Part shown: positions 516 to 51,983 of the stretch, in pieces
Numbering within the stretch: position 1 is the stretch's first letter
Layout of the letters: the number at the start of each line of letters is the position of its first letter
From: Ashinkailepas kermadecensis
Taxonomy: Eukaryota > Arthropoda > Thecostraca > Neolepadidae
Direction of reading: 5' to 3'
Assembly: GCA_034440615.1 (NCBI GenBank)
Contig: JAOTOM010004678.1
Location: forward strand, 332,612 to 396,611
Length of the DNA: 64,000 bases
Made by a program: the position numbers and the translations under genes
The notes under the pieces: generated by a model
Seen by the model: only the letters and a program-made list of their open reading frames with translations
What the model was told of the DNA's origin: nothing
Databases searched by the model: none

Positions 516-700
516 CTGCCAGATATTGTTCCAGACCATTGCAGCCGTTCATGCAACCCTCCTTCGAGGCGAAGTTATTCCTTTCCCAGGCAGCCTCCAA
601 ACAGGAACGGGTGGCAGCGCAGTGTGCGCGTTGAAGAAATAGCGCAGCTGAAGAGATTGACACGACCCGGTATCCGGCGGCACCAGACACGTCGACAGCA
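516..700 (-). pseudogene. Exon 29: Kunitz exon broken by two frameshifts
   Basis: A Kunitz domain is recognisable in three successive reading frames: [13 protein letters not shown] to RYFFNAHT, then [13 protein letters not shown], then [13 protein letters not shown]. The acceptor (TTGGTTTGCAG) and a phase-1 donor (GCAG|GTAGCG) are present, but the length is 185 nt, not a multiple of three. Relative to normal Kunitz spacing two bases are missing near 612-625 and two near 578-585. Splicing it in would give a premature stop. It is either a decaying exon or two assembly errors; P1 would be Gln. Confidence 0.7.

Positions 701-51983: not shown

Follow-up and report, generated by a model that had tools for sequence, protein, structure and literature searches.

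Minisatellites overlapping exon-intron borders in a predicted pacifastin/Kunitz inhibitor gene: an apparently dense example of mirage-type arrays

Among the 22 sizeable minisatellites found within one gene in the 64,000-nucleotide stretch of DNA analysed here (the window), ten cross a modelled splice junction, six of them at donors (exons 1, 2, 10, 11, 13, and 20) and four at acceptors (exon 3, which is doubtful, exons 4 and 18, and a Kunitz exon at 6.5 kb). This confirms an earlier note on the same DNA, which had described arrays at splice junctions across the gene. The arrays of the host gene appear to add a dense example to a known kind, the "mirages" of amphioxus. We propose that they are probably mirage-type minisatellites, i.e., ordinary tandem duplications that are tolerated where the exon-side splice site stays in use.

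The window forms the end of a 396.6-kb contig in an assembly of 908 Mb and 4689 contigs. The host gene lies on the minus strand at 516..51983, with its start ATG at 51983, and consists of pacifastin modules, a part with approximate exons (about 8-11.5 kb), and then Kunitz modules. The coding part of exon 1 (51917..51983, minus strand) is a phase-coherent ORF with a 12.2-bit donor after 51917, and it encodes an N-terminal stretch that, judged by eye, resembles a signal peptide. When exons E1-E20 were joined at the exon-side splice sites, a frame of 1180 aa was obtained with no stops and phase mismatches in 0/20; the phases agree throughout, each array is assigned one intron, and none contains a modelled exon. 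Over its full length the gene was modelled with 27 exons and 52 junctions, near the roughly 56 junctions of the earlier note, part of the exons (from about 11.5 to 8.0 kb) being approximate. By splice-site scoring, the exon edges are mostly in phase 1. On the minus strand of the window, regular expressions picked out 20 pacifastin-like matches, 2 Kunitz-like matches, and one VWC-like match of low complexity. In a Pfam scan of ten exons, nine matched above the curated cut-off (Pacifastin_I in 6 and Kunitz_BPTI in 3), and with these domains the host gene is predicted to be a pacifastin/Kunitz inhibitor gene. The exon at 10618-10862, which by eye had looked like a VWC module, was the one among the ten scanned exons that gave no Pfam match. 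Pacifastin is typical of arthropods. When the protein of exons 5-7 was used as a homology query, none of the 11 candidates reached E<=0.001, and a 1.3-kb piece of the gene had no second full-length counterpart in the assembly.

The array set was derived from 83 TRF rows in the window by removing simple repeats, periods below 10, and scores below 100, and merging the rest. The 22 arrays in the gene span occupy 12.4% of it. Besides the ten junction arrays, 11 are wholly intronic, with unit sizes similar to those at junctions, and one lies wholly in coding sequence (18-bp units, exon 16). All arrays described below are read on the minus strand. In donor arrays the unit comprises the exon tail and the intron start. 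The exon 1 donor array (51477..51942) has 11 units of 42/43 bp made up of exon tail and donor region, with GT in 8/11; the exon 2 donor (38819) array (38457..38856) has 82-bp units, four of five carrying a 12.2-bit donor; the exon 10 donor (29385) array (29045..29418) has 7.1 units of 55 bp, each combining the donor with about 33 bp of coding tail; the exon 11 donor (27788) array (27696..27858) has two units of 82 bp with an exonic part of 71 bp; the exon 13 donor (24585) array (24293..24586) has 15.5 units of 19 bp, with GT in 14/16; and the exon 20 donor (12415) array (12048..12437) has 46/32-bp units with 13 decoy donors above 5 bits. These six donors are the same as those named in the earlier note, and each was verified unit by unit.

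In acceptor arrays the unit comprises the intron end and the exon start. The exon 4 acceptor (35417) array (35380..35582) has 3.1 units of 65 bp with AG and the exon start, and the Kunitz exon acceptor (6561) array (6544..6948) has nine units of 45 bp with AG in 9/9, at a site that is phase-consistent, yet weak (3.05 bits). The earlier note had listed the acceptors of exons 4, 12, and 27; exon 4 stands, exon 27 stands if it is taken as the Kunitz exon with its weak site at 6561, and exon 12 (acceptor 25893) stands only in part, its array (25953..26404, 4.8 units of 84 bp) ending 60 bp upstream and being counted here as non-spanning, with a best 32-base match of 22/32. Two arrays absent from that list of nine are those at the acceptors of exon 18 (14505; 14474..14869, about eight diverged units of about 49 bp, with four sites further upstream that score as acceptors at >=5 bits) and exon 3 (37404; 37394..37618, two units of 112 bp), the latter being ambiguous with an alternative acceptor at 37383 that would put the array 11 bases upstream. 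The splice signal is not retained in all units, as the GT counts in exons 1 and 13 show, and the independent origin of the arrays is borne out, since their units differ and they therefore arose separately. For 9/10 junction arrays the period is indivisible by three, where about two thirds would be expected, and no inference is drawn from this. In the coding part of exon 16 (window 17545-17629), the in-frame 18-bp repeat with APSAQA-like units leaves the reading frame intact, in contrast to most junction arrays.

The anatomy of the arrays can be read directly. In 10/10 junction arrays the exonic part is less than one unit (2-71 bases), and the extra copies are on the intron side. The position of the junction inside the founding unit, given as the exon fraction, ranges from 0.10 to 0.87 with an even spread (KS p=0.50), which favours random duplication over a mechanism anchored at the splice site. 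According to our proposal, a short segment overlapping an exon-intron border by chance would be duplicated in tandem, and the copies would then multiply on the intron side. The exon-side splice site (the first donor or the last acceptor) would stay in use, leaving the mRNA unchanged, and duplications inside exons would be removed by selection. The large number of arrays here would reflect an array-rich gene with GC-rich exon edges. We infer that the exon-side sites are used, that the arrays are neutral, and that this is the mutational mechanism.

The alternative that survives best, although we regard it as unlikely, is that exon edges are prone to tandem duplication as mutational hot spots, by way of R-loops, pausing, or GC-rich structure for instance, and that junction arrays arise at several times the rate of arrays elsewhere. 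It draws first on the number of crossings, whose excess over chance depends on the null chosen. Free placement of the arrays gave a mean of 4.84 crossings against the 10 observed (P=0.010), and circular shift gave 4.88 (P=0.008). When exons were left intact (at most one unit of exon covered) the mean was 1.17, and when up to two units of exon were allowed it was 2.22; 10 crossings were reached in 0/5000 trials in both cases. We favour a model of founding units, since the intronic copies include exon sequence and the founder must therefore have spanned the border. Applied to 21 arrays (the exon 16 coding array left out), this model expects 1.19/21 crossings under uniform founding (P=4e-8 for 10, 6.6e-7 for 9, and 8.4e-6 for 8), and 2.3 when weighted by GC (P=2e-5 for 10; 1.5e-4 and 9e-4 with one and two doubtful junctions removed, respectively). 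The process at GC-rich exon edges suggested in the earlier note is upheld in part: the arrays are GC-rich (0.57 for intronic and 0.61 for junction arrays vs 0.49 for introns), and GC weighting halves the excess of crossings without removing it. Ten crossings against 1.2-2.3 under random founding leave some local bias over, which counts against our proposal. Against the hot-spot explanation, a per-position test in which a local close copy was found at 10/44 junctions vs 102/660 GC-matched intron points was not significant (P=0.14), and the breakpoints are not locked to the junction. By arithmetic there are about 14,000 windows of such size per genome, and since this one was picked by eye as extreme, the GC-weighted P value is not strong.

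The same explanation was confronted with the surroundings of pacifastin paralogues, taken as 20 segments of 10 kb and two shorter loci. With an automated, tighter caller of pacifastin exons, 4/91 called junctions lie within arrays (loci L034, L044, L047, and L051), and 4/42 arrays cross a junction vs 1.15 expected, giving P=0.027 if all four are independent; however, those of L044 and L051 are copies of each other. In the window the tighter caller found 7/23 arrays crossing vs 0.72 expected, which again favours hot spots at edges; it placed the exon 10 and 13 donors on decoy copies and made two surplus calls within the exon 4 array, the array count being unaffected by either. A looser caller placed 6/96 paralogue junctions in arrays. 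Two candidates were rejected and were lost with the tighter caller: at L040 the array is downstream of the likely donor, as judged from L037/L039, and at L048 the call was 675 bases off its acceptor, within a 34-bp array. Donors at a cut of 8.4 bits are present in 6/24 window arrays vs 4.9%, and in 2/43 paralogue arrays vs 4.8% of GC-matched segments, so that the paralogue arrays have no excess at this cut. At 7.5 bits the paralogue figure is 11/43 vs 8.5%, which a 67-bp repeat common to several loci may inflate.

At one acceptor among these loci, 70-bp units are repeated about three times (two copies being extra) at L044:1278-1493 and L051:4295-4519, and no array is present at L046 near 5077. 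The aligned stretches of L044, L051, and L046 are 92-97% identical and are either alleles or paralogues. At least one array thus appears labile, being present at L044/L051 and absent at L046, and this case of presence and absence is usable for dating. Length instability between alleles is a further mirage trait, to which the case would speak if these copies are alleles. Contig C4185 carries, at about 49-259 kb, a cluster of many pacifastin matches, partly spaced regularly at about 4.9 kb, with arms on both strands.

Genome-wide, donor-word pairs 10-40 bases apart were counted per single word, with the reversed word as control, a test that is blunt in that the single words include non-donors. 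For AAGGTGAGT there were 348 pairs per 5992 singles vs 210/9078 for the reversed word, a ratio of 2.5 on the side of edge hot spots, most of the pairs among the matches listed being in two large arrays. The other two words speak against such hot spots, CAGGTGAGT giving 1292/11014 vs 504/5523 (ratio 1.28) and AAGGTAAGT giving 59/5173 vs 150/11889 (ratio 0.90). Distinct arrays were compared for CAGGTGAGT only of the three words; a hand count among the matches listed, up to contig C1813, gave 22 arrays vs 9 for the control (p=0.71 vs the ratio of singles). Junction-type words enter arrays at the background rate or somewhat above it, and there may be a modest excess. The 504 pairs per 5523 singles of the reversed 9-base control word indicate that the genome is very rich in minisatellites. 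Myosin exons were also located in the assembly, with 78 matches.

The paralogue and genome-wide tests give weak and mixed support to a special mechanism at exon edges, and the general form of that claim in the earlier note is not sustained, the excess outside the window being weak or inconsistent. Arrays are in excess at splice sites within the gene under the placement and founding nulls, but not in the per-position test, and weakly elsewhere. That exon edges in this gene, and possibly in GC-rich genes across the genome, are duplication hot spots at several times the level of GC-matched introns, driven by a process tied to transcription or splicing, seems to us more doubtful still.

Retention of the arrays by selection, as a source of alternative or back-up sites for splicing, is an explanation also offered in the earlier note and is very improbable. 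Six introns contain 43 decoy donors above 5 bits, and 29/43 score equal to or higher than the real donor, as selection for splice choices would have it; however, 33/43 shift the frame, 9 more are in frame but with a stop, and only 1/43 is in frame and open. The GT/AG dinucleotides were compared with the other unit columns in eight arrays, the values for E2, E18, and E20 being rough due to indels or mixed unit types. Their divergence exceeds that of the remaining columns in E1, E2, and E18 and roughly matches it in E13, a decay that argues against selection on the sites; E4 gives a mixed picture. In three of the eight arrays GT/AG is invariant (GT in E10 and E20, AG in E26), and this counts against the tolerated-duplication reading because selection would give the same result. 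The 1180-aa open frame at exon-side sites and the single decoy in frame and open support that reading, and neutral mirages would fit the unit anatomy together with the decoy and decay data and the presence and absence of the 70-bp array among L044, L051, and L046. Copy numbers that are inflated or false through an assembly artefact are hardly credible, as the units differ from one another (mean column divergence 4-26% in eight arrays) and two contigs (L044 and L051) share a related array at one exon.

The earlier note knew of no described system of this kind, but mirages are published for several amphioxus genes. Amphioxus mirages are minisatellite-like tandem copies of either exon border with units of 10-160 bp, in which many units, not all, keep AG/GT and regular splicing is apparently undisturbed (PMC3087553). 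Mirage genes include the globins BflGb6 and BflGb9 (PMC3087553), TnC and PGBD5 (PMC3902484), and Adh3 (cited in PMC3087553; original paper Canestro 2002). In the host gene the array unit likewise overlaps the exon-intron boundary in 10/22 arrays (exon 3 ambiguous), both border types are hit (6 donors and 4 acceptors), and AG/GT is present in many units but not all (E1 8/11, E13 14/16). Unlike the amphioxus cases, about ten such arrays occur in one gene, and they are known from DNA sequence alone. Our literature search found no published case with ten mirages in one gene, and arthropod cases may exist in print. The 11 ordinary intronic minisatellites of the same gene have similar unit sizes but no overlap with a modelled exon edge.

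In human segmental duplicates, internal tandem repeats at exon-intron boundaries are reported to differ between recent paralogues (PMC2812944), and these are likewise minisatellite units at exon borders. That work deals with variable exons and new introns with transcript support, whereas the arrays here, according to the model, lengthen existing introns. Tandem duplication across an intron-exon border is also the basis of intron gain in the Rogers model and potato RdRp (PMC4974935). The duplications here cross the border in the same way, but no new intron is seen and the modelled frame uses one intron per array.

The idea that duplications at borders seed new introns could draw on the host-gene arrays. 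Since six of its introns together hold 43 decoy donors, the gene lends itself to studying how the spliceosome chooses a single site from many near-identical ones. The gene content suggests an animal other than a lancelet, in which case mirages would not be confined to lancelets.

Two introns of the host gene contain other repeats. An intronic stretch at window ~33174-33298 has 18 further matches in the genome (73-88% identity over 47-117 bases) and is probably a dispersed repeat. The intron after exon 19 carries, at window 12980-13687, a long (TA)n tract followed directly by a AGAGAGATAT array.
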